Assembly: GCA_903920145.1 (NCBI GenBank)
Contig: CAIXKV010000140.1
Location: 1 to 46,387, forward strand
Direction of reading: 5' to 3'
DNA: 46,387 nucleotides
Source: an uncultured Rhodospirillales bacterium
GTDB lineage: Bacteria > Pseudomonadota > Alphaproteobacteria > Azospirillales > Azospirillaceae
In this document: piece after piece, positions 8,672 through 30,178 of the stretch
How the letters are laid out: the number at the start of each line of letters is the position of its first letter
Position numbering within the stretch: position 1 is the first letter of the stretch
Position numbers and translations under genes: made by a program
Notes under the pieces: generated by a model
Database searches by the model: none
What the model saw: the letters and a program-made list of their open reading frames with translations, nothing else
What the model was told of the DNA's origin: nothing

Positions 8672-9058
8672 TTACGAAGCTTGACCCAAATAGGCGGCAA
8701 AATCAGCGTCATATCGCTGCAAATGGGTATCTAGAGTCTTTTGCAAATGAGGCCAGAGATCGGCGGTAGTGCTTTCTCGTCCGACGGCAAAGGCTGAAAT
8801 AAACTCCGAAAGAATACTCATAATATAATCGTGACTGCGTTTATGATGAAATAAATTCGGATAATTATTCTGCTTCATCATTGCTTCCTCATGGGAGAAG
8901 TGCAGAAGCATCGATGCCTTTAACATATTCAACGCATAGGCGACCCGATTTCGGTCCAAGGCCTGGCCACTTAAGAGCTGGCCCAGTTCATCCCCAATCG
9001 TTGCGATGGTCTTATGGTCTTCATCGTTGCTGGTTTCATAAACCTGGATGGATGCCAT
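8672..9058 (-). CDS. Bacteriohemerythrin
   Basis: Four-helix-bundle diiron protein that binds O2 reversibly; bacterial single-domain forms are thought to deliver or sense oxygen, or to protect against nitric oxide. All expected iron ligands are visible in order: His in NDEDHKT, HxxxE in HFSHEEAMM, HxxxH in HHKRSHDY, and HxxxxD in THLQRYDADF. At 128 residues it is a normal single-domain form. It starts at ATG 9058. It lies in an accessory stretch between the Uma2-like gene and the divergent DUF2076 gene. Spirilla often carry many such proteins; a role in microaerobic life is an inference. Confidence 0.92.
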   Translation of the reverse strand: MASIQVYETSNDEDHKTIATIGDELGQLLSGQALDRNRVAYALNMLKASMLLHFSHEEAMMKQNNYPNLFHHKRSHDYIMSILSEFISAFAVGRESTTADLWPHLQKTLDTHLQRYDADFAAYLGQAS

Positions 9059-9188
9059 TTTATCACACTCCCTGCCTGTGGCGGTTCATGCCGCTGCCCA
9101 GCAAGTATGGAGCAATCGCGGATACTACCAAGCCCATCCTGGCTTATTGCGTCGCAATGCGCAAGACTGGAGCGATGTTCCTGCAAGA

Positions 9189-9212
9189 AAGGTCAAAAAA
9201 TGGCCTTTTTTT
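9189..9212 (+). terminator. Possible weak terminator-like hairpin
   Basis: AAGGTC and GGCCTT can pair around an A-rich loop, followed on the + strand by a run of seven T. No + strand gene ends just upstream, so its purpose is unclear; it may mark a small transcript antisense to the hemerythrin leader. Confidence 0.3.
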
Positions 9213-9282
9213 CGCCATCGAATGGCGCCAGGTCGATAGGTAGAGTCATGCCGACTCATCGGTCTTACAAAGGAGTGTTTTC

Positions 9283-9849
9283 ATGAGCGACGGAGTAGCG
9301 ACCGCGAACCCAGTTCAGGGGCAAGGCGCCGTTCCCCCGGTACCACAGCCCAATGACGAAGATCGACGGGCCATTACCGATTTTTTTGATCGTTTGCGGG
9401 CGGTGGACGTGCCACGGGATCCCGGATCCGAAGCCCTCATTGCCGAGCTGATCGCTCGGGAGCCGAAGCTACGCTATGTTTTAACCCAACTGGCTTTCTT
9501 CCAAGAGCATGCGCTGGCCGCAGCCCAGAATCGCATTCAGGAGCTGGAATACCAGTTGGAACAAAAGCAGGGTTTCCTGGCCTCGCTGTTCGGATCCAGG
9601 TCAGGACCGCCGCCACAACCGATTCGCCCACCCGGTGGGGCCGCGCCGGGCCTTTTCAACCCTTCACGTGGCGGCTTTCTTGGCGGCGCTGGCGGTATGG
9701 CGGTGGGGGTGTTGGGCGGGGCTTTGTTGGGGGCGGCGGTCATGTCGGCCTTGACCGATGAACCGGCCGCCGCCGCTCCGGCTCCGGCCTATTCGCCTTC
9801 CGACAATGATGGCGATGACGGCAATTTCGATATCGATGATGACTATTGA
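9283..9849 (+). CDS. DUF2076 family protein with acidic C-terminus
   Basis: Matches the DUF2076 family, annotated in databases as uncharacterised or as periplasmic ligand-binding sensor-like. The N-terminal part (DEDRRAITDFFDRLRAV, EPKLRYVLTQLAFFQEHALAAAQNRI) is the family signature helix pair; a coiled coil (ELEYQLEQKQGF) follows. Then a Pro/Gly-rich linker, a hydrophobic glycine-zipper segment (GGAGGMAVGVLGGALLGAAVMSAL) and a strongly acidic tail (DNDGDDGNFDIDDDY). The start has a good ribosome site, AAAGGAG, nine bases upstream of ATG. It converges on pspF with only eight bases between the stop codons. The function is unknown. Confidence 0.82.
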   Translation: MSDGVATANPVQGQGAVPPVPQPNDEDRRAITDFFDRLRAVDVPRDPGSEALIAELIAREPKLRYVLTQLAFFQEHALAAAQNRIQELEYQLEQKQGFLASLFGSRSGPPPQPIRPPGGAAPGLFNPSRGGFLGGAGGMAVGVLGGALLGAAVMSALTDEPAAAAPAPAYSPSDNDGDDGNFDIDDDY

Positions 9850-9857
9850 TTGAGACC

Positions 9858-10901
9858 TCAAGAGGAAACCTCACCTGATCCCAGCCTGTGCTTGTAAAGC
9901 AGGCGGCGAAACTGGTGATAGCCTAGGCCCAGGCCGGCTGCCGCTTGCTTTTGGTTGAAGCGGTGGTCGGCTAAGGCTGTTTCCAGAAGCCTGCGCTCGA
10001 AGGCTCGCACTTGGCTTTCGAAATCGTTGGTGCTCGTGGCTGGGGACACTGCCGATTGGGGGGGAGTCGAGTTGGCAAGGGCTGGCGTGATGGCGTCGGC
10101 GAGAAGGGGCTGCGGTCGAAATGGTGAGGCAAACGGGTCAAACGTAATTTCGCTGACCGGCCCGGCGAGGTCGCGGCGACGGTGGACTGAGCGCTCTACG
10201 ACATTTTTCAGCTCTCGGATATTGCCCGGCCAGGGATAAGCCTGGAGTTGGGCCAGCGCCTCGGTGGTAAAACCGGGAAAGAAGGGGTGTTCTAACCGCC
10301 GGCTCATGCTCACCGCGAAATGATTCGCCAGAACCGGGATATCTTCGGGTCGGCAACGGAGCGGTGGCAGAGTCACGACTTCGAAGGCCAGTCGATCGAG
10401 CAGATCGGCTCGGAACCGGCCCGCAGAGGATAGGCTTGGTAAATCGGCGTTGGTGGCACCGATCACTCGAACGTCGCAAGCGAGGGTTTGACTCCCGCCA
10501 ACCCGTTCAAATTCCCCATATTCCACAGCCCGCAACAGCTTTTCCTGAACCGCCAGCGAACAATGGGCGATTTCGTCGAGAAACAAACTGCCGCCCTGGG
10601 CCAGCTCAAAGCGGCCAAGGCGGCGGCGCGTGGCGCCGGTAAAAGCTCCGGCCTCGTGACCGAAGAGTTCGGACTCCAACAGGCTTTCAGCCAGAGCTGC
10701 GCAGTTCAGTTTAACCAAAGGCCGATCCCAGCGCCGGGAGAGAAAATGCAGCCGGGCCGCCACCAGTTCTTTGCCGGTGCCGCGCTCGCCGATCACCAAC
10801 ACGGGCCGATCCAGGGGGGCCAATCGCGACACCATGTCCAGCATGCCCAGGAATGAGGGCGATTCTCCGACCAGGGGGGGCAAAACTCCGGCTTCAGGCA
10901 T
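9858..10901 (-). CDS. pspF: Psp operon transcriptional activator PspF (sigma-54-dependent)
   Basis: AAA+ enhancer-binding protein that activates the phage-shock operon with sigma-54 and is held inactive by PspA. Like classical PspF it lacks an N-terminal receiver domain: the AAA+ domain begins almost at the N-terminus. Visible: Walker A GERGTGKE, the sigma-54-contacting loop GAFTGA, Walker B GGSLFLDEI, and a C-terminal Fis-type helix-turn-helix (NQKQAAAGLGLGYHQFRRLL). I take ATG 10901 (347 residues, GGAA eleven bases upstream) over a TTG at 10928. It is divergent from pspABC, the usual arrangement, and shares the 302-base control region with it. Confidence 0.94.
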   Translation of the reverse strand: MPEAGVLPPLVGESPSFLGMLDMVSRLAPLDRPVLVIGERGTGKELVAARLHFLSRRWDRPLVKLNCAALAESLLESELFGHEAGAFTGATRRRLGRFELAQGGSLFLDEIAHCSLAVQEKLLRAVEYGEFERVGGSQTLACDVRVIGATNADLPSLSSAGRFRADLLDRLAFEVVTLPPLRCRPEDIPVLANHFAVSMSRRLEHPFFPGFTTEALAQLQAYPWPGNIRELKNVVERSVHRRRDLAGPVSEITFDPFASPFRPQPLLADAITPALANSTPPQSAVSPATSTNDFESQVRAFERRLLETALADHRFNQKQAAAGLGLGYHQFRRLLYKHRLGSGEVSS

Positions 10902-11037
10902 CAGAGCAATTCCATATCCGCGAGACAATAGCGATAAACGCTAAAGATAGCCTAAAATCGCTATCAAGCGGGAAGGGGGACGTCAATCCCATTCGGAAAA
11001 ATCTTTTCATATCATAATATTAGCCGATGCTATGCTG

Positions 11038-11054
11038 TTGGCATAACCATTGCG
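11038..11054 (+). promoter_or_regulatory. Sigma-54 (-24/-12) promoter of pspABC
   Basis: TTGGCATAACCATTGCG matches the sigma-54 consensus (TGGCAC-N5-TTGC) with the GG and GC doublets exactly 12 bases apart. Transcription would start near 11065, about 140 bases before pspA. The flanking 10902-11037 region is AT-rich and should hold the PspF enhancer sites, but I could not define them. Confidence 0.8.
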
Positions 11055-11203
11055 ATATCATTGCAATTGTCTGATCTAAGCGTCTGGTGGGTTGCGTCAG
11101 GCTGTTTGACAGGAATGCAGGCCTCTCTTGCCCGTGCTTCCACTTTTCAATTTAGCCGATGCGGCCCACGAGAGTTCATCACCGCACCTTCAGGGGGACC
11201 ATC

Positions 11204-11881
11204 ATGGGTATCTTTTCTCGTCTATCGGACATCATCAACGCGAACTTTAATGCGTTGCTGGACCGGGCCGAAGACCCGCATAAGCTGATTCGCCTGATCA
11301 TTCAGGAAATGGAAGACACGTTGGTTGAGGTTCGCTCGTCCACGGTCCAGATCATCGCGGAAAAGAAGGAGATCGAACGCAAGATCGCCAATGTTCGCCG
11401 AGACTGCGACGATTGGGCTGGAAAAGCCGAGGTTGCGCTGATTCGTGGGCGTGAGGATTTGGCCAAAGCCGCATTGGCTGCTAAAAATAAGGCTGCCGAG
11501 GTCGCCGAGGCTATGGAAGCCGATTTAGCGCCCTTGAACGAGGCGTTGGCTAAGGCCGATGCCGATATTCGAAGCCTGCAAACGAAACTGACCGATGCCC
11601 GAAATCGCGAGCAGACTATTGCCGCCCGTCAGCAATCGGCGGTTAATCGGATCAAGGTTCGGGATAAGCTCCATGATAGCCGGATCACCAACGCGTTCCA
11701 GAGATTCGAACAGGTCGAACGCGGTCTTGACGAATTGGAAGGCAAAGCCGACTCCTATGATATGGGTCGGGGGAAGTCCTTGACCGACCAGATCAACGAG
11801 CTGGTCACAGATGACAAAGTAGATCGCGAACTGGCCGAGATGAAGGCTCGGTTGGCTGCCAGAGGCTTGGGCAGCAAATAA
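11204..11881 (+). CDS. pspA: Phage shock protein A (PspA/IM30 family)
   Basis: Peripheral inner-membrane protein of the ESCRT-III-like PspA/Vipp1 family; it binds stressed membranes and, when free, inhibits PspF. The first residues MGIFSRLSDIINANFNALLD form the family's amphipathic membrane helix, followed by AEDPHKLIRLIIQEMEDTL. The rest is a long coiled coil (residues about 25-185). At 225 residues it equals typical PspA. The start ATG at 11204 has GGGGGA just upstream; an in-frame extension to 11159 is not needed. It is the first gene after the sigma-54 promoter and is followed 27 bases later by pspB. Confidence 0.95.
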   Translation: MGIFSRLSDIINANFNALLDRAEDPHKLIRLIIQEMEDTLVEVRSSTVQIIAEKKEIERKIANVRRDCDDWAGKAEVALIRGREDLAKAALAAKNKAAEVAEAMEADLAPLNEALAKADADIRSLQTKLTDARNREQTIAARQQSAVNRIKVRDKLHDSRITNAFQRFEQVERGLDELEGKADSYDMGRGKSLTDQINELVTDDKVDRELAEMKARLAARGLGSK

Positions 11882-11908
11882 CGGCAGCATGAGGAGGGGG
11901 AGGGGGGG

Positions 11909-12136
11909 ATGAACGAGGTTGGTGTCGTTATTGTGGTGCTGGTTCTGGTCTTCGTTCTGCCATTGTGGATTGTGCTCCACTATGTTACCCGTTGGAGGAG
12001 CAATCGCTCTTTGTCAGCAGAAGATGGGCGCATGCTGGGAGAGTTATGGGAAAATGCCGAGCGCATGGAAAGTAGAATTCATGCTCTTGAGCGTATTTTA
12101 GACAATGAAGCGCCTGGATGGCGTAATAAGCGTTGA
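11909..12136 (+). CDS. pspB: Phage shock protein B
   Basis: Small inner-membrane protein that works with PspC to sense envelope stress and release PspA from PspF. One membrane segment (VGVVIVVLVLVFVLPLWIVL, residues 4-23) is followed by HYVTRW and a cytoplasmic helix ending ESRIHALERILDNEAPGWRN, which closely parallels enterobacterial PspB. Its 75 residues match the family. A strong GAGGAGGGGGAGG ribosome site precedes ATG. Its stop codon overlaps the first hairpin of the dispersed repeat copy that separates it from pspC. Confidence 0.93.
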   Translation: MNEVGVVIVVLVLVFVLPLWIVLHYVTRWRSNRSLSAEDGRMLGELWENAERMESRIHALERILDNEAPGWRNKR

Positions 12137-12267
12137 TGTTAACATATCAAGATTGCCTTCAGACGCTAGGCGGGCGCATCCGCGCCCTTGGCTTCGCGTC
12201 CACGAGGACGCGGGGCCGCCGTCGCGGCCCGATACCGGCGATGTGTCAGTATCAGGGCTCGCCGGTA
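12133..12267 (+). repeat. Dispersed hairpin-chain repeat, full copy inside the psp operon
   Basis: From about 12155 to 12267 this copy is nearly identical to the inverse complement of 46250-46366, with two or three base changes in the first 20 bases. Hairpins in order: a decayed H1 (TTGAT at 12133-12137 with ATCAA at 12146-12150, overlapping the pspB stop), H2 (GGGCGC/GCGCCC), H3 (CGCGTCC/GGACGCG), H4 (GGGCCGC/GCGGCCC) and H5 (TACCGGCGA/TCGCCGGTA with a 17-base loop). It would be transcribed between pspB and pspC, and ends 51 bases before pspC. Confidence 0.88.
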
Positions 12268-12318
12268 CATCGTTACGACTTGCCGGTATCGTATTGTCTT
12301 TGAGAGAGAGCCCCCGAG

Positions 12319-12714
12319 ATGCGTCCACGCCCCTCCTTTAGCGCTTCCCCTCCGCGTCGGCTTTATCGTGATCCGGCGGCGGGAAAACTGTTTGGCGTTT
12401 GCGCTGGCCTCGCCAGTTTCCTGGGAGTTGATCCAGGATTGGTGCGGATCGCCATGGTGGTTGGCTTAATCTTCTTATCCGCCCCGGTTTTGATCGGCTA
12501 TGGGCTGGCGGCTTTGATTTTGCCTGCCCGGCCTCCGGAGTCGTACCCGTCGATCCATGACGAAGAGTTTCGGCGCCATGCCGCCGACCAGCCTCGGGTT
12601 ACGTTGGATGGGGTTCGGCAACGGTTCGGGGACTTGGAACAGCGGGTGCGCGCTTTGGAATCCCATGTCAGTGGCCAGGAATTTCTTCTGAGCCGGGAGA
12701 TTCGTAATCTTTAA
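12319..12714 (+). CDS. pspC: Phage shock protein C (PspC domain)
   Basis: Inner-membrane partner of PspB in the stress-sensing complex. The PspC domain is clear: RRLYRDPAAGKLFGVCAGLA (13-32), SFLGVDPGLVRIAMVVGLIF, then a hydrophobic segment (SAPVLIGYGLAALILP). The C-terminal half is a predicted coiled coil (GVRQRFGDLEQRVRALESHV). Its 131 residues match the family. It starts at ATG 12319 with a GAGAG ribosome site. The 182-base distance from pspB, caused by the repeat copy, is unusual for this operon. It converges on the chemoreceptor gene. Confidence 0.92.
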   Translation: MRPRPSFSASPPRRLYRDPAAGKLFGVCAGLASFLGVDPGLVRIAMVVGLIFLSAPVLIGYGLAALILPARPPESYPSIHDEEFRRHAADQPRVTLDGVRQRFGDLEQRVRALESHVSGQEFLLSREIRNL

Positions 12715-12766: not shown

Positions 12767-15349
12767 TTAATAATGTTGATCAAGCTTAAACGCCGTCATC
12801 AAGGTCCGCAATCCTGCAGCCTGGTTGTCTAGCTCGCCTGCTGCCGCTGTGGTTTGTTCGACCAAGGCCGCATTTTTCTGAGTCACTTCGTCCATTTGCG
12901 CCACCATCTTATTAATTTCGTCCAGAGCGATGGTCTGTTCGCGACTGGCACCGGCGATGTCGGTGATCAAGGCAGCCACGTCGCGCACTCCGTTGACAAT
13001 CCCGGTCAAGGCTTCTCCGGCTTCACGAACCAAAGTCACCCCATCGCGCACATGATCGTCGCTCTGGAGGATTAACCCTTTGATTTCCTTGCTGGCTTCG
13101 GCAGAACGGCGAGCCAGCAAGCGGACTTCCTGCGCCACCACCGCAAATCCTTTGCCGGCATCACCGGCTCGAGCCGCCTCAATCGCTGCATTTAAGGCCA
13201 ATAGATTGGTCTGGAAGGCAATTTCATCGATAACCGAGATGATGTCGATGATTCGTCGGGATGAAGTCTCGATTCGCCGCATGGCTTCGACGGCAGCTTC
13301 GGCAACCGTGCCGCCATTCTGGGCCGCCGTTTGGGCGGTGATGGCCACCTCGCGGGCGTGGATGGCGTTCTCGGCATTGGAGCGAACCGTGCCAGCCAAT
13401 TGCTCCATGGCTGCTGCCGTTTGTTCCAAGCTGGACGCCTGCTGTTCGGTGCGCTCGGCCAAATCTCCCGACCCCGCCGAAATCTCCGCCGAAGCCGTTC
13501 CGATATCATGAGCAGCGGCCATGATGCGCCCCACCACGTCGGTTAATTGTCCAGCAGTGTGGTTGGCATCATCCTTGATTTGACCGAATTTACCTTGAAA
13601 ATCCCCAACGATACGTGCGCTGAGGGTTCCTGCGGCCAGTAGCTCTAGAAAGGTTGCGATTTCATCAAGTGATTGACTCACGGTTGCGCTTAATGTATTG
13701 ACGCCTTCGGCAACGCGCTGGGCAAAGCCTTCTTTATCCGTTAAATCGATGCGCCGCGACAGATCACCCGCTACAGCGCAATCAACCATCGAGGTTATTT
13801 CCTCTTGGATGGTAAGCTCTTGGGTAATATCGCGCCACTCAACGACAGTTCCCAGCCGGATGACTTCACGATTGATAACGGGCGTGGCTACTAGGGAGAA
13901 GTTGCGCACACCGATTTGAACCCGGCTGTGATAGGGCTCCCGAATGGTGGCGAGGCGCTGCCGAATAGCCTGGGGATCCCGATGAAAGCGGTCGATGCTG
14001 CCTCCCAAAAGGGCATCAACGCTGAATCCGGGCATTTGGCGGCGGATATCCGCCTCGGCGCGCCGGAACATGGTTCGGACGGCTTCATTCATATAGATAA
14101 TGGTACCCTCAGGATCGGCCATCATTGCGTTGGCCGATACGCTATCGAGAGCGGTTTTGATCCGGGTGGCGGAAACTCCGGCTTCGTGAATCAGCTTGAT
14201 GGCCCGCGCCAAGTCGCCAATCTGGTCGTGTCGCTCCAGACCCGGTATCGTCATGGACGTATCCCCCGCCGCGATGCGGGTGGTGGCTTCGGTTAAACCG
14301 CCAATAATACGCATCATCATCCGCATAACCACCCCGCCGATTAGCAGCGCCACCAGCGCCACCAGGATGGTTAGAATTGTAACCGCCAGAAATTGCTCTT
14401 GGGCGTGCGTTGCCCGGCTCTGCGCTTGGGCCATCAGGTTGGCAGCCAAGCCGTCTTCCACTTGCTTCATCTGTTCGATGCGATTGGTGGTCGCCTGGAA
14501 CCAAGTCGCCGCCGACACGCCTTCGGATATTCCCCCAACACCAGCCGCGTAGGCGACCTTTCGGAGTTTTTGGACCTCTTGCAGCGCGAGCCCCTCAGGG
14601 CCCTGATCCAGTTTTGCGATAACCTCTGGGGACGCGATTCCACGTAAGATTGAGAAAAACGTGTCTTGGGCTGCGGCTAGGGCAATAAACCGTTGGTATA
14701 ATCCGTCATCGAATTTTCCGACCGCAAAGCCCGCCGAACCGATGGCTCGTTCCTGGCCAGCTCGCTCTTTGCCCTGCATTAAGGCAATATAGGCCGAGAG
14801 TGTGGCCTCAATCGCTGCGTCATTGGTGGCGTGAGCGATCTCGTAAGAGGAGTCAAGCAAACCGCCAATCATGTCAGTGAAGATTTGAATAACCTGCGCC
14901 CTGTCAGGTGATGTGGCGGTCACCCCGCCCAAAGTCAGACGATCGATGCCGTGTCGAGTTTCATCGAGCTGATCCAAGGCCGCAACTGCCGTGCCAATTT
15001 GGGCCAGGAAGCCGGAAAAGCGGGGATTTTGGCCCAGATCCCGAAGCGCCGAAATCAGGGCCTCGGTTGCCGCCTTGGATCGTTGCCGCTGTTCCATCAC
15101 ATTTTGGCGAGCCTGTTGACGGCCATTGGCCAGAAACAAAGACGACAGGCCGCGTTCCTTCTGGAGTTCATGGACCAGCGTGCTGACTTTGGTGGTGGCC
15201 GTCGCGACGGCCACCAATTCGGCGTTTTCTCGCATGACCTGCCAGCGTTCGGTCACCATCAGGCTCGAGATACCAATCAAAGCCGCTATCGATACCAAAA
15301 TAGCGGTGAAGACCTGCTGGCGAATCGGCCATTGCGATATCAAAGACAT
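12767..15349 (-). CDS. Methyl-accepting chemotaxis protein with NIT sensor, HAMP and PAS domains
   Basis: Chemoreceptor of 860 residues. A first membrane helix (about 12-32) precedes a periplasmic NIT (nitrate/nitrite-sensing) domain with the family signature [17 protein letters not shown] (56-72); a second membrane helix ([20 protein letters not shown]) follows near residue 330. Then come HAMP, a PAS domain ([20 protein letters not shown], '[17 protein letters not shown]'), a second HAMP-like linker ([14 protein letters not shown]) and a C-terminal signalling domain with the hairpin tip [33 protein letters not shown]. No C-terminal CheR-binding pentapeptide is seen. Nitrate or nitrite as ligand is inferred from the domain, and fits the hcp locus in the same window. 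Confidence 0.92.
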
Positions 15350-15394: not shown

Positions 15395-16417
15395 TTATCT
15401 GTTATTTACATTAAGACTTAGTATCTCATCATGCTGGCGCGGCGATAGCGACCAGGCTACAGCGTCGGCCAAAGCGTCGTGAGCTGGGCGGTGATGGTAG
15501 CCAAGCTCGCGCTCGGCTTTGGCTGTACTGAAGAACATCTTCTTGCGGGCCATTTTGGCGCCGTCCACCGTCAGCTGAGGATCCGTAGCGCCGGTCAGAC
15601 GGGTCCAGGCTTCCATGATATAGGCCAGCGGCAGAATCAGGTTGTGAGGCAGGCTGATGGAAGGCGGGCGACGGTTCGTCAAGGCGGCTATGGTTGCGAG
15701 AATCTCCCGAAGCGTGAGGTCATCCCCTCCCAGAATATAACGCTCGCCAATCCGGCCCCGATGAAACGCCAGCAAATGCCCTGCGGCCACGTCGTCCACA
15801 TGAACGATGTTCAAGCCGGTATCGACATAGGCTGGCATGCGTCCCGTGGCCGCATCGGCAATCAACCGGCCTGTTGGAGTGGGTTTAATGTCGCGCGGGC
15901 CAACGGGTGTCGAAGGATTGACGATCACGACGGGGAGTCCTTGTTCCTCCACCAATCGTCGAACCTCGGCTTCGGCCAGGAACTTAGACCGCTTGTAGTG
16001 GCCTACCATGTCGTCCAGCGTGACCGGAGTTGCCTCGTCAGAGGGAAGGCCGTCAGACCGGATGCCAAGAGTGGCGACGCTGCTGGTGTAAACAATCCGC
16101 TGAATCCCAGCCTCCAGGGCGGCCAGCATCAAGTCGCGGGTGCCTTCGACATTGACCCGGTAGATGCTATCGGGATTGGGAATCCAGATGCGATAATCGG
16201 CTGCGACGTGAAAGAGCGCCTGACAACCAGCCAGTGCCGAGGCCAAAGAGGCCCGATCAGTGAGATCACCTTCGGCGATTTCAACCGCCAAGCCGGTTAT
16301 GTTGCTCCGGTCGCTTGAAGGGCGCGCCAATACACGCACCGTATCGCCCGCCGCCAATAGATGACGAACGACGGCAGCCCCGACAAAGCCAGTGGCACCC
16401 GTAACCAGCGTGGTCAA
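15395..16417 (-). CDS. hpnA: Hopanoid-associated sugar epimerase HpnA
   Basis: NAD-dependent extended SDR of the HpnA family, placed with hopanoid gene sets in many alphaproteobacteria and thought to act on hopanoid head-group sugars. Seen: the Rossmann motif GATGFVG (7-13), the FHVAADYRIW signature typical of HpnA and dihydroflavonol-reductase-like proteins, and the catalytic YKRSK (YxxxK). Its 340 residues are normal. The ATG at 16417 overlaps the cheW stop by four bases (ATGA), so it is translationally coupled to cheW, an odd pairing of a lipid-sugar enzyme with a chemotaxis adaptor. No other hopanoid genes are nearby. Confidence 0.88.
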   Translation of the reverse strand: MTTLVTGATGFVGAAVVRHLLAAGDTVRVLARPSSDRSNITGLAVEIAEGDLTDRASLASALAGCQALFHVAADYRIWIPNPDSIYRVNVEGTRDLMLAALEAGIQRIVYTSSVATLGIRSDGLPSDEATPVTLDDMVGHYKRSKFLAEAEVRRLVEEQGLPVVIVNPSTPVGPRDIKPTPTGRLIADAATGRMPAYVDTGLNIVHVDDVAAGHLLAFHRGRIGERYILGGDDLTLREILATIAALTNRRPPSISLPHNLILPLAYIMEAWTRLTGATDPQLTVDGAKMARKKMFFSTAKAERELGYHHRPAHDALADAVAWSLSPRQHDEILSLNVNNR

Positions 16418-16974
16418 GACTCGCTCCTTTTTGGTGGTAAAGCCGATGCGTCGTTGATCAGGCTACTCGTCCTATAAGCCGATGGGCCCAAGAGCGCGAT
16501 CATCCGATCCTCGGGAGTATAGAGGCTATCAATATAGCCACTATTGAGGGCATTATGCAATATTTCTGGGGCATGTTTGATTTCATGATGAGAAATCAAA
16601 ACAATGTCCGAAATGGCATCAACCAAAATTCCCCTGAGATCGTGGTTGCTGCCGACGATGATCACCACATGCGTCGGTGTGGCTTGAGTCCTAGTCCCAC
16701 CGAAGCGAATCCGCAGATCAACAATCGGAATCACCGCCCCTCGTAGATTAATCATACCGCGAATATCTAGGGGAAGGTTAGGAATTTTACTTTCCTGAGT
16801 CCAACCGCGAATGTCCCGGACATTGGTGATTTTGAGCCCGTATTCCTGCTCGTCGATGGTAAAGATAATATATTCACCGATATTTGAGTCGGCTAAATCT
16901 AGATTAGTAGTAGGTGGATGGAGAATTGTGCTGGCGCGCAAAGCCGGAATGTCAGCGGATATCAGACTAGCCAA
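16414..16974 (-). CDS. cheW: Chemotaxis coupling protein CheW
   Basis: Scaffold linking chemoreceptors to CheA. The domain begins at EYIIFTIDEQEYGLKITNVRDI and includes the receptor-binding signature LPLDIRGMINLRGAVIPIVDLRIRFG, then VVIIVGSNHDLRGILVDAISDI. At 186 residues it is longer than a minimal CheW owing to a 33-residue N-terminal extension and a short tail. It is isolated from a main che operon but sits between two chemoreceptor genes on the same strand, which suggests it serves them. It overlaps hpnA by four bases. Confidence 0.9.
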   Translation of the reverse strand: MASLISADIPALRASTILHPPTTNLDLADSNIGEYIIFTIDEQEYGLKITNVRDIRGWTQESKIPNLPLDIRGMINLRGAVIPIVDLRIRFGGTRTQATPTHVVIIVGSNHDLRGILVDAISDIVLISHHEIKHAPEILHNALNSGYIDSLYTPEDRMIALLGPSAYRTSSLINDASALPPKRSES

Positions 16975-17198: not shown

Positions 17199-19295
17199 TC
17201 ATTTTTCAAGAATGAAAAACATTATCCTTTGCTCGACATCGGAAGTTTGTTCAGCCATAGACTGTGCAGCAGCAGTCGTTTCTTCCACCAATGCTGCATT
17301 TTTTTGAGTGGTTTCATCCATCGAAGAAACCGCAGCATTGATTTCTTCAAGGGCGCTAGCCTGCTCGATACTGCTATTGGCAATCTCGCCAACCAGAACT
17401 GAGACCTGCTGGACTCCTTGAACAATCCCGGTCAGAGAGGTGCCGGCTTTTTTAACCAGTTCGACGCCATGTTGAACTTGATTGTCGCTATTAAGAATAA
17501 GTGTTTTGATCTCTTTAGATGCTTGGGCCGAGCGTTGGGCCAATACACGCACTTCTTGCGCCACCACGGCAAACCCTTTTCCGGCTTCGCCGGCGCGTGC
17601 CGCCTCGACAGCCGCGTTCAGGGCTAATAGGTTGGTTTGAAACGCAATTTCGTCGATAACGCCGATAATATCGGTGATCTTGCGACTGGCCTCGGCAATC
17701 CTCTTCATGGCATCAATCGCTGAATGTGCCACTACGCCGCCTTGTTCCGCCGCCTTTCGGGCGTCTAGGACCATGGCGTTAGCCCGCTGGGCGTTGTTGG
17801 CACTGGTGCGAACCGTGGCACCCAATTCTTCCAATGAAGCCGCCGTTTGCTCTAGACTCGAGGTTTGTTCTTCCGTGCGTTCGGACAAATCGACACTGCC
17901 AGCCGAGACCTGATTCGCGGCTGCGGAAATTTGTTCGATAGCTTCGCGAATCCCGCCAACCAGATCTGCCAGCGTATCACTGGTGGTATTAAACTCATTT
18001 TTTAATTTTTGATAGGCACCCTGGTAATTCTGATCGATGCGTTGGGTCAGATCACCATTCGCCAATGCCGTTGCCATGATCGTCAAGTCACCAATAATCG
18101 CTTCCACGGTTTCAGCCAACCGATTGATATGTTGACTCATAGATAACAAAATTCCGTCGCGGCCTTCTGTGTTCATCCGCCGGGATAGATCACCAGCAAT
18201 AAAAGATTCGACTAAATCAGAGATTTCTTGGCCGACCTCGTGTTCGCGTTCGCGCACGGCCTGTTCCATACGTCGTTGATTCTCAATACGCCCTTGCTCC
18301 TGTGCCAAAGTTAGGCGGCGCCCTTCCAAGGCATTGTCTTTAAAAACGACTAAGGCTTCGGCCATCAAACCGATCTCATCACCGCGCTTGAGCACCGGCA
18401 CATCGGCTTCCAAATCTCCACCGGCAAGCTTTTGCATGGCATAGATCATGCGGCGCAAAGGGCGGGCCAAGCCCGCAACCGCAAACCAAAGAGCCAGTGC
18501 AATCAAGCCCAAGAGGCCAACCGCCAAAATAAGATAAGTTTGATGCAGCATTTCTGTAATGGCTTGAAAAGTATGGCGAGTCAGTTGAGCTTTATCAGCT
18601 TTCTGCTTTTTCAGAACCTTATCAGCGAGATCTGAGGCTGCAACCGAAGTTTTTTTCAAGGCTTCATTGAAAGCATGAATGCGCTCTAATTCCTCATAGA
18701 TATAATTAGACGTGGCCTCGGTGAATTGTGATTTTCGAATTAATTGAATGGTCGCGTCATTCGCGGTACTAAATAATTTATAAACATTAGCCAAGCTTTG
18801 TCCTGAGCGGACCATAATATTAAAAATTTTAGTGCTGGATGTAATCAATGATCCATCATCAGCTTGGATTCCTGTAGTCGTGTTGGTTTGGCTTTCTGAA
18901 ATAAATCCACCGGCAAGTAATGCAACTTTTAAGGCCTCCAAATGGCTGGAAAACTGCCCTAGATTGATACGAATTTTCTCCCGCGCAGCCAGTGTTTTTG
19001 CTGCACCTTCTGGGTCTTCGGCTAAAATAGAAGCTTGATGGCTTTCCATCACAGCATTAGTGGCTAGAATAATGTCCATAATATCGCCTTGAATATCGGC
19101 ATTAGCCTGTCCAACAGCATTTATTTTCTCCGAAAGTTGATCTCGAATATCAGACGTACTTTTGAATAAATCAGATATACTATTCAAATTAAATAGACTC
19201 ACGAATCCTAAAATGATCAACGGCGTTACCGCGACGGCAATAACTTTGATACCGATACCGATGCCGAGTCCTTGGGCGCGTTGCGTATTGGCCAT
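17199..19295 (-). CDS. Methyl-accepting chemotaxis protein with helical-bundle sensor
   Basis: Chemoreceptor of 698 residues from ATG 19295 (GGAGATAGAATAACG upstream gives a good ribosome site; an in-frame extension to 19334 is weaker and runs into a terminator). A membrane helix near the N-terminus ([20 protein letters not shown]) precedes a periplasmic helical domain, and a second membrane helix ([20 protein letters not shown]) precedes HAMP. The signalling tip [33 protein letters not shown] is intact. The sensor region is visibly more AT-rich than the signalling domain. The ligand is unknown. It is preceded on the same strand by the secreted tandem-module protein, with a strong terminator between. 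Confidence 0.9.
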
Positions 19296-19332
19296 CGTTA
19301 TTCTATCTCCACTATGGGCATCAAAACATAAC

Positions 19333-19368
19333 AAAGGCCCGAATCGGGTCAGGACGATTCGGGCCTTT
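19333..19368 (-). terminator. Strong hairpin terminator between module protein and chemoreceptor
   Basis: A perfect 14-bp stem, AAAGGCCCGAATCG paired with CGATTCGGGCCTTT around an eight-base loop, lies four bases past the 19373 stop codon. The stem's A/T ends let it act in either direction. It should isolate the 19373-20326 gene from the receptor gene. Confidence 0.75.
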
Positions 19369-19372
19369 GAGA

Positions 19373-20326
19373 TTACAAGCTGGTGGCCAGGGCCAAGGCT
19401 TTGGTCAGAATATCGTAAGTATCAGAAGGATTTTTACCCTGGGGTTCGGGCGGGAGCAGGCTTGGGCTGGTAACACCAAACGCAAACTTAAGAGAACCCA
19501 ATTCCGCCAATAGATTATTTTCAAGGTCGGCGACGTGGGCGGGGATAATCGCCCCTGTTCGTCGATTCGGCAACACGATCCCGCCTGCCAATTTAATCGA
19601 CGGATCCGCTTCGATTTTGCTCTTAAGCTGCTCTAGGACCGCAAAGGCTTGATTATAGGTGTCGAGCGGCTTTTTGCCGGTTGCACCAGTTGGGGCCTCT
19701 ATCACGTCGGTTTTACCGCGAGCCGCGCGAATTTTCTCCAGGTCATCGACCATCACCAATGCCAGTCGGTAGACATCGTTGGGGACGATTTTGGGGATTC
19801 CCAGTCCGTCCAAAGACTCGCTAGCCTTTTGCAGATCGGCGTAGTTATCGGTCGGGGTTTTTCCCATGACCAATGGTACCGCCGAGACAGGCTTAGTGAC
19901 GTTAAATTTCGCCCGAAGGTCCAGCAAGTCGGCCAACGCCTGATCAACCAACACTTTCACATGGCCGGGAGTGATTTCCGCAACCGGGAAGGGCGGCACC
20001 GGGTGCTCGGGCAATCCGTTGAGTGTCCGTAGCAATTCAACCTTCAGAAGGACTTCACGAGCCTTTTGGACCACATGGCGGGGGGCGCGCGGTGTTAAAG
20101 TCGGTGCGTTTTGATCGACCGAAGGTTGAGATGAATTCGCTTCATGCATGGCTGCCAGTTCAGCATTAATGTTCTCGATAACCTGGAACACGTGAGATGG
20201 CGTAATGCTTTGGGCGTTAGCCTGATTCGGTTGAGTGGAGGCCATGACCAACAGTATAAAACTTGTAGCAACCCGGATTGACCGTGGTGTTTTCTGGAAT
20301 AACTCGGCGTACTTGCGCATAAACAT
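19373..20326 (-). CDS. Secreted protein of alternating helical modules (uncharacterised family, paralogue 1)
   Basis: I do not recognise a named family. The 317-residue protein has a signal peptide (about 1-39, cleavage near ANAQS). After it, two kinds of module alternate. Type A has P-x-[HD]-V, then a helix ending near L-x-x-[LI]: residues about 41-63, 118-142, 181-204 and 261-285. Type B has GKxPxDxY then a helix: about 154-176, 217-239 and 297-317. Between the first two A modules lies [20 protein letters not shown] (83-102) plus NGLPE. A paralogue at 35767-36756 shows the same order. It starts at ATG 20326 (GGGAG upstream). It lies upstream of a chemoreceptor gene, and the paralogue beside a CHASE kinase, so a role in extracytoplasmic sensing is a guess. 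Confidence 0.75.
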
Positions 20327-20458: not shown

Positions 20459-20986
20459 TTAAGTGGGGCGGGCAAAATTTAGCATGGTTGGTGCTTTCTC
20501 AATAATTTCTTCTAAAATTAAGGAAGCCGTCTCTAAATCTTTTTCAAGATGCCCGGCGATTTTTTCAGCATAAGCTGGACGCATCAATTTTTCATGGGCA
20601 TCGTGAAGGCTTCGCAGTTCAGTCACAAAAACCTCTCGAGCGCCTAACGGTAAGATTGGATTGGCCGAGAGCACAAAGAAAAAGCGCATACTCGCCCGCA
20701 CCAACACGGACAGCATCATCATATCCAATTGCTCGAATTCTTGGCGCAGATCGTCGATTCGGGTGCCTTGGACGTTCTTCAATCGGCCTTCAATCAAGAT
20801 AACGAGGGCTTGGAATTCACCCACTTTGTCCCGAAAGCTGCGATAAGCGCCGAAGCTGTGCTTTCCGGCTTCAATTTCCGCAGTTTTGGCCAGCACCATG
20901 GCTTCACGGCACTGACGTTCCAGGGCGCCGAGTAACTCTTTGACTTCGGCACGGGTGTAGGATCGGGTTTGAGGCCGTCTCGCCAT
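20459..20986 (-). CDS. Hypothetical helical protein
   Basis: Not recognised. From ATG 20986 it has 175 residues (MARRPQTRSYTRAEVKELL...), mostly helical and charged, with no signal peptide or membrane segment. Notable stretches are SFGAYRSFRDKVGEFQALVI, FEQLDMMMLSVLVRASMRFF and LSANPILPLGAREVFVTELR. The open frame extends to 21169, but that would overlap the 3' end of the efflux pump gene and its extra residues look like non-coding translation. It is 132 bases upstream of the tandem-module gene on the same strand. Base composition shifts at its boundary with the efflux gene. Confidence 0.65.
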   Translation of the reverse strand: MARRPQTRSYTRAEVKELLGALERQCREAMVLAKTAEIEAGKHSFGAYRSFRDKVGEFQALVILIEGRLKNVQGTRIDDLRQEFEQLDMMMLSVLVRASMRFFFVLSANPILPLGAREVFVTELRSLHDAHEKLMRPAYAEKIAGHLEKDLETASLILEEIIEKAPTMLNFARPT

Positions 20987-21090
20987 AAAGCCATTCGTCC
21001 AACAAATGATCGACAACGGCTCTATAGCACGAACGCATAAAGGAGGCAGTAGCCTTTGGCAAAAAAGGGCCCGTGCTTTGTCTCTCCGAA

Positions 21091-22656
21091 CTATCGCTGG
21101 GCCGGGCGCCGCAGAAGGGGCATGCACAGAACCCCGAAGGCAAAAACGCCGGCCATGGCCTGAAGGCAATCGCTGTAAGTCAGAACCTCAACTTCTCGTG
21201 TCACTATTCGCATGATAACAGCCATCGCGGCGCTATCGGGAGCATTGGCAACCAAGCCATCAAAATGGGCGCTTAAATTATCGATAAAAAGTTGCACTTC
21301 AGGTCTGGATAGATTAATTTGATCGCCCAAGCGATCAAGATGGAGAGTTGCGCGATCTTGAATCATCGTATTAATCCAAGCCATGCCAATGGCACCACCA
21401 AGATTCCGCATTAAATTATAAAGGCCACTGGCATTTTTAAGCTTATCTGGCGGCAATAAGCCTAAAGCTAATGTATTGATTGGAATAAAACATAACATTA
21501 ATGAAAATCCTCGCAATGCCTGAGGCAATAGTAGTTCATTAAAATCAGAGTCCGCAGTCAAAAGAGAATTTTCCCATAACCCTAAAGCAAATAAACTTAG
21601 CCCAAAAAACATCACAATACGTAAATCGACATGCTTTGATAAAGCCCCGGCAATAGGTGCAGACATAAATTGGAATGCGCCTGTAACAAACATAATCTCA
21701 CCAATTTGAAAAGCATCTAGATTCCTGACTTGCGATAAAAAAAGCGGTAAAATATAAACAGATCCATAAAGTCCAATACCAAGAATAAAGCTATAGAAAC
21801 TACCAAGAGCAAAATTTCTATTGGTAAATGCTCGTAGCTCGACAATTGGATTGACCGCCACTAAAACTCTCCAAGTAAATAATAATGATGATATTGCACT
21901 AATAATCGCAAACGTAAAAATACTATCATCGGAAAACCAATCATTGTGCGGCCCTTGTTCGACCACATACTCAAGCCCACCCAAAAATAAAGCCATTAAA
22001 AGCAAACCAATCCAATCAAAACCTTTAGCAAGAGTCCGATCTCCTTTATCAACATTGACGAGCAACCACACTGCAATGGTAACGAATAAACCAGGGGCGA
22101 CATTAATTAAGAACAGCCAATGCCATGAGAAATTATCGGTAATCCAACCGCCCAGAGTGGGGCCAAGAGTGGGCGCCATAGTTGCCACCAATCCAATCAT
22201 GACCGACACGACTGGCCGTTTATCCATAGGAAAAATCATGAAGCTGGTGGCAAAGACCGTGGGGATCATGGCGCCTCCAATAAAACCCTGGAGTGCCCGG
22301 AAAAATACCATGCTACCCATGGAGTCAGCAAACGAGCAAGCCAGACTCATAAGAGTAAATCCGGCTGCTGACAAAGTAAAAAGAACTCTTGTTGATAAGA
22401 GGCGTGATAAAAATCCCGACAATGGGATCATAATCACTTCTGCAATGAGGTATGATGTTTGAACCCAACTAATTTCATCAGAGCTTGCGGAAAGACCAGC
22501 CTGAATTTCAGAGAGTGAACTGGAGACAATTTGAATATCCAGGATGGCCATGAACATCCCAACGACCATGACCATAAACCCGGCCCATTCGCGCACCCCA
22601 ACATGCTTGACGGGGGGGTGATGTGCCGGTGATTGAGGCGCCGTTGATGCGCTCAT
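21091..22656 (-). CDS. emrB: DHA2-family drug efflux MFS permease (EmrB-type)
   Basis: Inner-membrane proton antiporter of the 14-TMS DHA2 family, expected to form a tripartite pump with the adjacent HlyD-type protein. N-terminal helix GFMVMVVGMFMAILDIQIVS has the D-x-x-I/V motif of the family; WVQTSYLIAEVIMIPLSGFL and the motif-C-like stretch ATMAPTLGPTLGGWI are clear. Its 521 residues are normal. Its ATG overlaps the emrA stop by four bases, so emrA is first and emrB second. Much of the gene is strikingly AT-rich compared with emrA, which suggests either recombination or relaxed composition. Substrate unknown. Confidence 0.92.
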   Translation of the reverse strand: MSASTAPQSPAHHPPVKHVGVREWAGFMVMVVGMFMAILDIQIVSSSLSEIQAGLSASSDEISWVQTSYLIAEVIMIPLSGFLSRLLSTRVLFTLSAAGFTLMSLACSFADSMGSMVFFRALQGFIGGAMIPTVFATSFMIFPMDKRPVVSVMIGLVATMAPTLGPTLGGWITDNFSWHWLFLINVAPGLFVTIAVWLLVNVDKGDRTLAKGFDWIGLLLMALFLGGLEYVVEQGPHNDWFSDDSIFTFAIISAISSLLFTWRVLVAVNPIVELRAFTNRNFALGSFYSFILGIGLYGSVYILPLFLSQVRNLDAFQIGEIMFVTGAFQFMSAPIAGALSKHVDLRIVMFFGLSLFALGLWENSLLTADSDFNELLLPQALRGFSLMLCFIPINTLALGLLPPDKLKNASGLYNLMRNLGGAIGMAWINTMIQDRATLHLDRLGDQINLSRPEVQLFIDNLSAHFDGLVANAPDSAAMAVIMRIVTREVEVLTYSDCLQAMAGVFAFGVLCMPLLRRPAQR

Positions 22657-26996: not shown

Positions 26997-27172
26997 GAAT
27001 CGTCACTCCATCGCGGGGCTGATTCTGGTCGCCAGCCTCCCCCAGGGGATTTTAGCGCATATTACGACCGACCCGACACCATAAAGGAAGCAAGGTTCCG
27101 AACAAGGAGACTTTTTTCACACCGTCAAGGTTCGCTGATATCACAAACCCCAATTGCAGGATATTCGCTGTG

Positions 27173-27190
27173 CCTTGACCAACGTCAAGG
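27173..27190 (+). promoter_or_regulatory. CRP/FNR-family box (Dnr/NnrR type) upstream of hcp
   Basis: A perfect 18-base palindrome, CCTTGAC-CAAC-GTCAAGG, containing TTGAC-N4-GTCAA, the half-sites of nitric-oxide-responsive Dnr/NnrR-type regulators. If centred at -41.5, transcription starts near 27223, 30 bases before hcp, and TTGAAT at 27211-27216 would be the -10 element. A lone half-site GTCAAGG lies at 27124-27130. Confidence 0.75.
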
Positions 27191-27252
27191 AGAGCGGAAC
27201 GTCCTTGGTCTTGAATGGGTACCGAGAACGCCTCGAACCACAAGGGTCACCC

Positions 27253-28917
27253 ATGTTTTGCTATCAATGTGAACAAACCGATCGGTCGTCAAGTGTAGCC
27301 GGATGCTCTGACGCCAAAGGCATGTGCGGCAAAGATACCGTGACCGCCGATTTGCAAGATTTGTTGGTGTATGCCGTTAAAGGCATCGGTCAGTATGCTC
27401 GACGGGCGCGAGCACTAGGGGTTCCTGATCGTGAGGCTGGCGGTTTTGTGCTGTACGCGCTGTTCACCACCCTGACCAATGTCAACTTCAATCCAGCCCG
27501 ATTCGTCTCGCTGCTTCAGGAAGCGGCCCAAGTGCGCGATCGGGTCAAGGCAGCCTATGAAGCTGCGGCTAGTGCTCAGGGCGTAACCCCCGAGACATTG
27601 TTCGGCCCGGCGGCTTGGCAGCCCGTGGCGGATATGGATGGCTTGGTGGCTCAGGCGAGTGTTGCCGCCATCACCAGTGATCGTGACCGGGTTGGTGATG
27701 ATGTCATTGGCCTGCGGTCAATGGTTCTGTATGGCATCAAGGGGGTTGCAGCCTACGCTCATCATGCGCATGTTCTGGGCTACGAAAAAGATGAAATCTA
27801 CGCCGGTCTTGAAGATTTATTGGATTTTCTAGCCAGTGATCCAGTCGATCTCGAAGGATTGTTGGAACAATCCATGGCGGTTGGCCGATTAAATTTAACC
27901 GTGATGGAAGTTCTGGATGCTGCCAATACCGGAAATTTTGGTGCCCAGCAGCCGACCTCCGTGCGGGTCACGCCGGTTAAGGGTAAGGCGATCCTGGTCA
28001 GCGGCCATGATCTGAAGGATCTGTCGTTGATCTTGGAGCAGACCAAGGACAAAGGAATCAATGTTTATACCCATGGCGAAGTTCTGCCGGCCCACGCCTA
28101 TCCAAAATTGAAAGCTTACCCGCATCTAGTGGGCAATTATGGCTCGGCTTGGCAGAATCAGATAACCGAGTTTGCCGATTTTCCGGGGCCGATCGTCATC
28201 ACCTCTAATTGCCTGATTGAGCCGGCGCCCCGTTACCGTCAGCGAATTTTCACGTCGGGTCCGGTGGGCTGGCCGGGGATTCGCCATATCGCCAATGGTG
28301 ATTTTTCGCCCGTGATTCAGGCTGCATTAGCCTTGCCAGGCTTTATCAACGACGTTCCAGAAAAAACCATTACCGTTGGTTTTGGCCGGGATGCCGTATT
28401 GGGGGTTGCCGGTGCCGTGATTGATGCCGTTAAGAGTGGTGCGATCAGCCATTTCTTCCTGATCGGCGGGTGTGATGGTGCCGCGCCTGGACGGAATTAT
28501 TATACTGAATTTGCCGAACAGGTTCCCAGCGATGGCGTTGTTCTTACTCTGGGCTGTGCAAAATATCGGTTCAACCAGCATGATTTTGGTGATATCGGCG
28601 GCATCCCTCGGTTGCTCGATATCGGCCAATGCAATGACACCTATTCGGCAATCAAAATCGCCAGCGCCTTAGCCGAAGCGTTTGGCTGTGGTGTCAATGA
28701 TCTGCCTTTGTCTCTGGTGGTTTCGTGGTTCGAGCAAAAAGCTGTGGCGGTGCTGCTGACTTTGTTGGCGCTTGGTATCCGTGACATCCGCCTGGGGCCG
28801 AGCCTGCCGGCGTTCCTAACCCCGGCACTGTTGGAACAAGTGGTTGCGCGGTTCGCTGTAAAGCCGATCACGACGCCAACGGCAGACATCGCCGCGTCCT
28901 TACGTCAGGCTGCTTAG
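27253..28917 (+). CDS. hcp: Hybrid cluster protein (hydroxylamine reductase / NO reductase)
   Basis: Iron-sulfur-oxygen hybrid-cluster enzyme of the cytoplasm; Hcp proteins reduce NO or hydroxylamine and promote protein S-nitrosylation in E. coli. The N-terminal cysteines Cys3, Cys6, Cys18 and Cys25 have the CX2CX11CX6C spacing of enterobacterial-type [2Fe-2S] Hcp. Hybrid-cluster ligand regions are present: [32 protein letters not shown] and the late Glu in [12 protein letters not shown]. 554 residues, normal. The start MFCYQCEQT fits the family exactly; upstream in-frame codons are leader. A nitric-oxide-type box precedes it and an intrinsic terminator follows, before a reductase gene that is its likely electron donor. 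Confidence 0.96.
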
Positions 28918-28932
28918 GCCTTAAAACTGAAG

Positions 28933-28964
28933 GGGGCGGGCCCATGCGACCCGCCCCTTTTTTT
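28933..28964 (+). terminator. Intrinsic terminator after hcp
   Basis: Perfect 8-bp GC stem (GGGGCGGG/CCCGCCCC, nine-base loop) followed by seven T. It is a textbook rho-independent terminator 16 bases past the hcp stop and only 15 bases before the next start codon. Confidence 0.9.
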
Positions 28965-28978
28965 CCGCCATTTCTGCC

Positions 28979-30040
28979 ATGAATGATGCTCGCCCCATGA
29001 CCGACACGCACACCATTCGTCTTGCGACCAAGGACGGACAGGATTTTGTTTTTGAGTGCGCCGCCACCGAAGACATCGTGGCGGCTGCGGCCAACGCTCA
29101 TATCTTTTTGCCGGTTCAGTGTCGGGCAGGGGCCTGCGGAACCTGCCGGGCGACCTGCGAAGACGGCGCCTATGATCTGGGCGCATACAGCCCTGGCGCT
29201 TTGCCCGAGGACGCGGCAGCTCGTCGCGAGGTGCTGTTGTGCCGAACATTTCCGCGCGGCTCTTTGTCTTTGGTTCTGCCCTACGAGTCGACCCGGATCG
29301 CAACCGAAAACGCGGTGCCGCGTTTGGCCAACATTACCGATGTGGTCGAAATTGGCGAGAAAACCCTTAGGTTGGCTTTGACCCTGGTACCGGATGAACG
29401 GTTGGGAACCGGAGTCGAATTCGAACCCGGTCAATATATGGAATTGAAGGTGCCGGAAACCGGCGTGACCCGCGCATATTCGTTGGCCAATACGCCCAAT
29501 TGGGATGGGCAGCTCGAATTCCTGATTCGGCTTCAGCCGGGTGGTCAGTTTTCCTCTTGGCTATCGAGCGATGCCAAACCGGGCGGTCAGCTTCAGGTGC
29601 GCGGGCCGTTTGGCTGTTTTGTTTTGAATCAAGGCAGTTCACGTCCCCGAGTCTTTGTGGGCGGTGGAACAGGCTTGGCCCCGTTGCTGTCGATGCTGCG
29701 TCGGATGGCCGACTGGCAGGAGCCCCATCAGGCTCACCTTTATTTTGGCGTCAATCGCGAGGCCGAAATGTTTTCGCGGCCGGATTTGGAGCGTTTGGCG
29801 GTAGAAATGCCGAATCTACGGATCACGCTGTGCGTCTGGCGTCCTGAAGGCGACTGGAATGGCTTTGTCGGTTCGCCGATTGAGGCCTTGAAGCAAGATT
29901 TCGAGGCCGGAAACCTGTCCTCCCCAGAACTGTATGTCTGCGGCCCCCCCGGTCTGGTGGATGCGACGGACAGCCTCGCTCGCCAGTTTGGAATCAGTGG
30001 GGATCGGGTTTTTAGTGAGAAATTCTTGCCGGCTTCGTGA
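28979..30040 (+). CDS. 2Fe-2S ferredoxin-FAD/NAD(P)H oxidoreductase, probable Hcp reductase
   Basis: Electron-transfer flavoprotein. An N-terminal plant-type [2Fe-2S] ferredoxin domain (CRAGACGTC, CX4CX2C, then LLCRTFP) is followed by a ferredoxin-reductase-like FAD domain (FEPGQYMELKVP, RAYSLANTP, the FAD-binding RxYS motif) and an NAD(P)-binding domain (FVGGGTGLAPLLSMLRRM, LYVCGPPGLVDA). This order matches MmoC or benzoate-dioxygenase reductases; E. coli Hcr has the ferredoxin at the C-terminus. Being next to hcp suggests it reduces Hcp, but aromatic-oxygenase-type partners cannot be excluded. Start 28979 is given; ATG 28997 is equally possible and neither has a clear ribosome site. A strong terminator stands just upstream. 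Confidence 0.85.
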   Translation: MNDARPMTDTHTIRLATKDGQDFVFECAATEDIVAAAANAHIFLPVQCRAGACGTCRATCEDGAYDLGAYSPGALPEDAAARREVLLCRTFPRGSLSLVLPYESTRIATENAVPRLANITDVVEIGEKTLRLALTLVPDERLGTGVEFEPGQYMELKVPETGVTRAYSLANTPNWDGQLEFLIRLQPGGQFSSWLSSDAKPGGQLQVRGPFGCFVLNQGSSRPRVFVGGGTGLAPLLSMLRRMADWQEPHQAHLYFGVNREAEMFSRPDLERLAVEMPNLRITLCVWRPEGDWNGFVGSPIEALKQDFEAGNLSSPELYVCGPPGLVDATDSLARQFGISGDRVFSEKFLPAS

Positions 30041-30178
30041 GTTCTGAGTATTCGGATACTAACTCTTCATCCCACCAAGCGCCAGAGGCAAAGCTCCTGT
30101 TTTTAAAACGCTGTCGCCCTGCCGGATGGTTACGGCAAGAGGAGTGTGCTATGCTCCCCAGCAGGGGCAAGCGCCGAT

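Follow-up and report, generated by a model that had tools for sequence, protein, structure and literature searches.

The window, a stretch of 46,387 nucleotides from an uncultured Rhodospirillales bacterium, carries two genes of one family, each of which lies beside the gene for a transmembrane receptor. The first, paralogue 1, is a minus-strand open reading frame of 317 amino acids (19373-20326); on the plus strand the corresponding frame is broken by stops. Its translation, read by eye, begins with a region of 39 residues ending ANAQ (20210-20326, minus strand), in which a hydrophobic stretch is followed by a signal-peptidase-like ANA-QS site, and the N-terminus thus reads as an ordinary signal peptide, as the first-pass annotation of this DNA had proposed. 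The second gene, paralogue 2, also anticipated in that annotation, was located by sequence search at 35767-36756 on the minus strand; its product is 44% identical to paralogue 1 and begins with a lipoprotein-like signal ending in LTWSC. A search of the genome from which the window comes returned these two family genes in total, both on the minus strand of the window.

The gene that follows paralogue 1 was correctly taken for a chemoreceptor gene: at 17199-19295 (minus strand), it encodes 698 amino acids from its ATG and matches HAMP and MCPsignal in Pfam. A chemoreceptor that is 77% identical occupies the same position beside the family gene of a sister genome (locus L009). Next in the cluster is CheW (16414-16974, minus strand; Pfam CheW, E 3e-26), and CheW is likewise next at L009 (E 3.9e-30). 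Paralogue 2 overlaps by 4 bp the gene for a hybrid histidine kinase with the Pfam order CHASE-PAS-HisKA-HATPase-REC (36753-39539, minus strand). At locus L011 a kinase that is 62% identical precedes the orthologue of paralogue 2, which itself carries a lipobox-like signal, IWSC.

Between paralogue 1 and its chemoreceptor is a terminator-like hairpin of 15 pairs (19332-19369, minus strand; folding z-score -5.6), after which comes an interrupted T run. The same intergenic gap at L009 contains a hairpin of different sequence (z -2.9). The strong terminator of the first-pass annotation is therefore real as a structure, but it need not be a sign that the two genes are unrelated; it may be an attenuator giving more partner than receptor, or it could be a full terminator. 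Elsewhere the family gene and the receptor gene mostly overlap or nearly touch, unlike this hairpin-separated pair.

Two alternating helical motifs, joined by a single linker, had at first been read in paralogue 1. The sites themselves are present: P-x-H/D-V occurs at residues 43, 120, 182 and 262, GKxPxDxY at residues 155-162, 217-224 and 297-304, and the ten-residue linker sequence at 83-92. However, GKxPxDxY contains the same motif in the form P-x-D-[NT], and the RHV within the supposed linker belongs to a further copy, P82-R-H-V85, so that there is a single motif in eight copies. This helix-starting motif, P-x-[H/D/N]-V/T/N, begins at residues 43, 82, 120, 158, 182, 220, 262 and 300, and the spacings read from the sequence are 39, 38, 38, 24, 38, 42 and 38 residues. 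The pattern P.[HDN][VTN], which was composed post hoc after inspection of the sequence, matches eight times, whereas 20,000 shuffles gave 0.64 matches on average and never more than 6. The short 24-residue step divides the protein into two halves (residues 40-178 and 179-317), which hhalign aligns as homologues (probability 99.7, P 6e-26, against P 0.35 for a reversed control), and paralogue 1 is therefore a duplicated four-helix unit. Forms of about 600 amino acids, in which the whole protein has been doubled again, are found in Hydrogenimonas and certain others of its phylum, and in a single genus (L057-L061) of the phylum to which the window belongs.

The structure prediction and structure-similarity search that the first-pass annotation had suggested were both carried out. 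An AF2 model of paralogue 1, for which 17 homologues were supplied, has a mean pLDDT of 90.8 and a pTM of 0.83. The mature protein is modelled as a series of eight distinct helices, most of the linkers being about 17 residues long, with no strands, and each helix begins at or adjacent to a copy of the motif. These helices may be arranged as a rod or solenoid, as the first-pass annotation had suggested for about seven units, or as a globule. By DSSP of the model, the first half (residues 41-180; 19787-20206, minus strand) contains helices at residues 43-64, 82-102, 120-136 and 158-173, and the second half (residues 181-317; 19376-19786, minus strand) contains helices at 182-202, 220-240, 262-282 and 300-316. 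Comparison of the model with the PDB in Foldseek gave no fold match (best E 1.6). VIA-align reached at most Z 5.4, aligning about 100 residues, and its matches, chiefly portions of fumarase-type proteins, were treated as common helix packing. No fold was thus recognised for the model, which does not by itself prove that the predicted fold is new.

Conservation among the 60 family members collected is highest in helix 2 (residues 82-102; 20021-20083, minus strand), where P82 is kept in 59/60, R83 in 57/60, H84 in 50/60, K95 in 51/60 and R100 in 49/60; members without histidine at position 84 have mainly glutamate. Columns conserved in at least 45 of the 60 members number six in helix 2, one in its counterpart helix 6 and five in helix 7, and conserved charged residues beyond helix 2 are D160, E275 (53/60) and K298. 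From this pattern helix 2 is read as a putative binding site, either for a ligand or for the receptor.

The absence of a named domain, another point of the first-pass annotation, held: Pfam, NCBIfam and PHROGs yielded nothing credible for the family, and a clear match to a characterised domain family did not arise. No Pfam family matched paralogue 1 even at E 10, including helical repeat profiles such as TPR and HEAT. Among 17 members, Pfam matches were scattered (best E 0.045) and none was to a family named as a binding protein; nor, against some 45 Pfam profiles of solute-binding proteins, could the family be placed in that superfamily. The FtsL profile matched 2 of the 17 members (best E 0.0012), probably because of their N-terminal hydrophobic stretch. 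An unnamed PHROG match of paralogue 2 (E 0.012) and the best matches to PDB sequences (E 0.011 to RBL7_C2_3 in a single-sequence search, E 0.099 in a profile search) were taken as chance. A viral or plasmid origin was also considered and rejected: no relative of paralogue 1 was found in viral contigs (a scan for close relatives only) or, by tblastn, in a plasmid collection, and a viral structure library gave no match at E 0.001. In the literature the family is undescribed in the titles and abstracts among the matches listed, which does not exclude that such a paper exists.

A scan of species genomes returned 15 loci, in genomes, some of them MAGs, that include Rhodospirillales, Pelagibius, Oceanicola, Phaeospirillum, Magnetovibrio, Thiosymbion, Methylococcaceae, Cycloclasticus and Hydrogenimonas. 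The distribution is patchy. The family is present in 3/59 relatives, and profile searches found it in 3/82 genomes of the window's family, 2/385 of its class and 31/398 of its phylum, all four counts including the window's own genome, and in 6/298 genomes of the Hydrogenimonas phylum, a count that includes the genome of L023. It therefore spans two phyla, which we infer to be Pseudomonadota and Campylobacterota.

The gene neighbourhoods, which the first-pass annotation had likewise recommended for study, were compared for the 60 family genes in the window and the collected loci; several of these are near copies, so the 60 are not independent. In nearly all cases the family gene lies beside a receptor gene: 54/60 adjoin a chemoreceptor gene (17) or a histidine kinase gene (37) on the same strand, and the chemoreceptor beside paralogue 1 is an instance of this family-wide rule. 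In the main locus set, a receptor gene on the same strand lies no more than 200 bp away from 47/53 (a chemoreceptor for 17, a kinase for 30). The gap between the two genes is 20 bp or less, overlaps included, in 39 of these 47 pairs, single values being approximate because gene starts were set mechanically, and the receptor lies downstream of the family gene in 40 and upstream in seven. The kinase partners at L010, L020 and L023 were assigned by eye beyond the automatic search, and all 30 kinase partners match Pfam HisKA at E 0.01. Kinases also adjoin the family genes of L112-L116, and kinase fragments adjoin those of L061 and L071 at contig ends, the former fragment being 77% identical to the kinase beside L060 and the latter carrying HATPase and REC domains. 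As a control, 22/383 other genes in the same loci have a chemoreceptor or kinase neighbour, a figure that rises to 32/383 when all partners are counted; the control left out just the 47 partners of the main set, so genes beside the L112-L116 kinases were scored as control matches.

Among the remaining family genes, those of L057 and L070 end at a contig edge, and two at L117 lie beside TM-PAS and PAS-GGDEF-EAL proteins, from which it is possible that c-di-GMP proteins are a third output class for the family. The L117 genes are located inside a c-di-GMP signalling cluster (4187-12266 of that locus, minus strand) that encodes TM-PAS, PAS-GGDEF-EAL and REC-PAS-GGDEF-EAL proteins. No signalling neighbour was found in the full loci L014 (Phaeospirillum) and L016 (Thiosymbion). 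The Phaeospirillum member (9797-11251 of its locus, plus strand) has a C-terminal cupin domain and is placed, by eye, after transporter-like and before oxidoreductase-like genes; this cupin fusion is perhaps a stand-alone sensor or enzyme version of the protein.

The sensor domains of the adjacent receptors are diverse. Chemoreceptor partners carry 4HB_MCP_1 (5/17), TarH (3/17), CHASE3 (1/17) or sensors without a Pfam name, and kinase partners carry HK_sensor_dom_bact (22/30), dCache_1 (19/30), CHASE (3/30) or CHASE3 (2/30). Both output and sensor types vary beside the family gene, so the partner stays while the two of them change. For the chemoreceptor in the window, the periplasmic sensor domain (residues 45-255; 18531-19163, minus strand) has no Pfam name and was modelled with AF2 as an all-helix bundle (pLDDT 81.1, pTM 0.60). 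Receptor matches of this model in VIA-align range from Z 16.2 to 14.3, with the ligand-binding domain of PcaY_PP at 16.2 and TorS and Tar at 14.4; Tsr is also among them, and the XylFII-LytS complex is found among the four-helix sensors matched. The top rows are, however, designed helix bundles at Z 17.0, values of about 15 are also reached by FAT domains, and the best Foldseek match is to an unrelated rice protein (E 0.006), with receptors at E 0.026 and weaker; the four-helix assignment therefore rests on topology and is not proven kinship.

An N-terminal hydrophobic stretch is present in 58/60 members; of the other two, one has a weak stretch and one is truncated by a contig start. The strict lipobox pattern is matched by 1/60 and a looser pattern by 5/60, the latter in an earlier, poorly bounded count. 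Judged by these patterns, most N-termini look like ordinary signal peptides or anchors, and some members are probably lipid- or membrane-anchored.

In the family tree the window paralogues and their orthologues form sister pairs (SH-aLRT 98), one pair with a chemoreceptor and the other with a kinase. On this quick tree, which has long branches, four changes of output type are needed, of which three are forced by starred branches. A protein that contacts its receptor in the periplasm would be expected to have distances that track those of the sensor more closely than those of the cytoplasmic domain. The chemoreceptor group comprised 11 of the 17 partners, chosen by eye as one sensor type, and here the correlation of family with sensor was 0.87 and that of family with signalling domain 0.61; with near copies removed (L009, L021 and L064 omitted, n=8) the values were 0.55 and -0.16, with a partial correlation of 0.62 (permutation p 0.008). 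The kinase group comprised 19 of the 37, most of them of one clade of the tree, with correlations of 0.88 to the sensor and 0.84 to the kinase domain; when near copies and one outlier were omitted (L069, L080, L082 and L090; n=15) these became 0.90 and 0.73, and the partial correlations were 0.80 and 0.35. In these exploratory tests, the divergence of the family appears to track the periplasmic domain of the receptor more than the cytoplasmic one. Faster evolution of sensor and family than of the cytoplasmic domains can inflate the partial correlations.

By predicted export (58/60) and receptor adjacency (54/60) the family would belong among receptor accessory proteins, a class defined by function and not by homology. 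Periplasmic binding proteins are built from alpha/beta lobes, whereas the family model is strandless and no Pfam binding-protein family matched, which sets it apart from TorT and LuxP; the likeness to TorT-TorS and LuxP-LuxQ is one of working principle, and the TorS sensor was one of the structures matched by the model of the partner sensor (Z 14.4). LuxP and TorT are described as periplasmic partners of the kinases LuxQ and TorS that dock on the sensor domain and join in sensing (PMC8534201, available text). More generally, solute-binding proteins activate chemoreceptors, kinases and c-di-GMP enzymes and have in common a topology of two lobes connected by a hinge (PMC9602780, available text). 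The family adjoins these same three receptor classes, but it is all-helix in the model, matches no solute-binding Pfam profile and is encoded beside the receptor itself. The system QseG-QseE, encoded in E. coli K-12 by qseG and glrK, is alike in having an exported accessory protein encoded beside its receptor and a four-helix sensor, as modelled for the window chemoreceptor. QseE has a four-helix-bundle sensor and QseG is its accessory lipoprotein, with a globular helical part and a C-terminal two-helix bundle (PMC12691602, available text). In contrast to this described architecture the family has an eightfold helix repeat, and it adjoins chemoreceptors, kinases and probably c-di-GMP proteins. 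Homology with QseG was considered and rejected (BLASTP of the pair gave E 0.17, and hhalign a probability of 0.7%). With the same receptor classes, no solute-binding profile, an all-helix model and no relation to QseG, the family appears co-receptor-like and outside every named family found.

We therefore consider it probable that the family protein is a periplasmic co-receptor for the adjacent transmembrane receptor. The support in hand is the export signal, the repeat architecture, the very strong conserved adjacency, the change of partner type and the co-divergence with the sensor. The eight-helix protein would be exported and would then dock on the periplasmic sensor domain of the receptor; for paralogue 1 this would be the helical bundle of its chemoreceptor (17199-19295), and for paralogue 2 the CHASE domain of its hybrid kinase (36753-39539). 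There it would set or modulate signalling, probably by binding a signal of its own and passing the change to the receptor, although both ligand and direction are conjectural. The putative signal would most likely bind at the P-R-H...K...R face of helix 2, which is conserved, the two homologous halves could serve as two lobes, and the hairpin at 19332-19369, if an attenuator, would leave this partner in excess over the receptor. Against the co-receptor stands the fact that the partner sensor domains are of unrelated fold, so that a single docking mode for all of them is hard to envisage. Also counting against it are the two full loci that lack a receptor neighbour (L014 and L016), the patchy distribution, the conserved charged residues beyond helix 2 (D160, E275 and K298) and the chance that the hairpin is a full terminator.

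A sub-form of the co-receptor, less likely though worth serious thought, is an envelope tether or stress gauge in the manner of QseG, which would bind no small ligand and would link the receptor with the cell wall or the outer membrane, activating it by contact. The lipoprotein-like signals of paralogue 2 and its orthologue fit such a tether, as do the tandem-doubled forms of about 600 amino acids and the precedent of QseG-QseE as an established accessory lipoprotein on a four-helix sensor (PMC12691602, available text). On the other hand, the lipobox is matched strictly in only 1/60 members, and in 5/60 by the looser, poorly bounded count, most N-termini looking like ordinary signal peptides or anchors, and no sequence relation to QseG was found. 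Alternatively, the protein may be a receptor-specific periplasmic chaperone or stabiliser, acting in folding, dimerisation or clustering and not in sensing. This would likewise yield tight adjacency and co-divergence with the sensor, and unrelated sensor folds are indeed served, but we judge it improbable: the contrast between helix 2 and its counterpart helix 6 (six conserved columns against one) looks like a specific binding site, and with two family genes against 69 MCP-domain matches in the genome, most receptors work without a family partner.

It is more improbable still that the protein acts independently in the periplasm or at the surface and has no closer tie to the adjacent signalling gene than co-transcription with it or regulation by it. 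The hairpin between the genes in the window genome and the two loci without a receptor neighbour (L014 and L016) would agree with this, but the adjacency has survived three or more changes of output and is seen in both phyla, and the family co-diverges with the periplasmic part of the receptor. Further, transcription is not itself regulated by chemoreceptors, which also counts against an independent protein.

Extending the co-receptor reading to the family as a whole, we suggest, with slightly less than even confidence, that it is an exchangeable periplasmic scaffold, with a fold unmatched in the PDB, built as twice four helices (four times in the forms of about 600 amino acids), which has more than once become the companion of chemoreceptors, hybrid kinases and c-di-GMP proteins whose sensor folds are unrelated, and which would constitute a second general signal route beside that of solute-binding proteins. 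The input signal of the great majority of bacterial signalling systems is unknown (PMC6321045, available text). If the co-receptor reading is true for a whole class of chemoreceptors and hybrid kinases, ligand screens on isolated sensor domains would miss the signal; the family supplies receptors together with their putative partners, and the two sister paralogues of this genome provide one case with a chemoreceptor and one with a kinase.

The surrounding genome of 4.26 Mb is rich in receptors, with 69 MCP-domain and 90 HATPase-domain matches. Upstream of paralogue 1, the gene at 20459-21169 (minus strand) is nearly identical, by eye, in the sister genome (L003/L009); it has no Pfam match at E 0.1 and a weak NCBIfam SiaB-kinase match (E 0.0079). 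Elsewhere in the window, sigma-54 activator, PspA and PspC domains at 9858-12714 mark a phage-shock-like envelope stress cluster, which adjoins a NIT-domain chemoreceptor at 12767-15349. At 27154-30040 (plus strand) are genes for a Prismane (hybrid cluster) protein and, after it, a ferredoxin-FAD-NAD reductase; such pairs of hybrid cluster protein and reductase are linked to nitrosative stress. Beyond these, a protein with adenylate/guanylate cyclase and FHA domains is encoded at 30146-31168 (plus strand).
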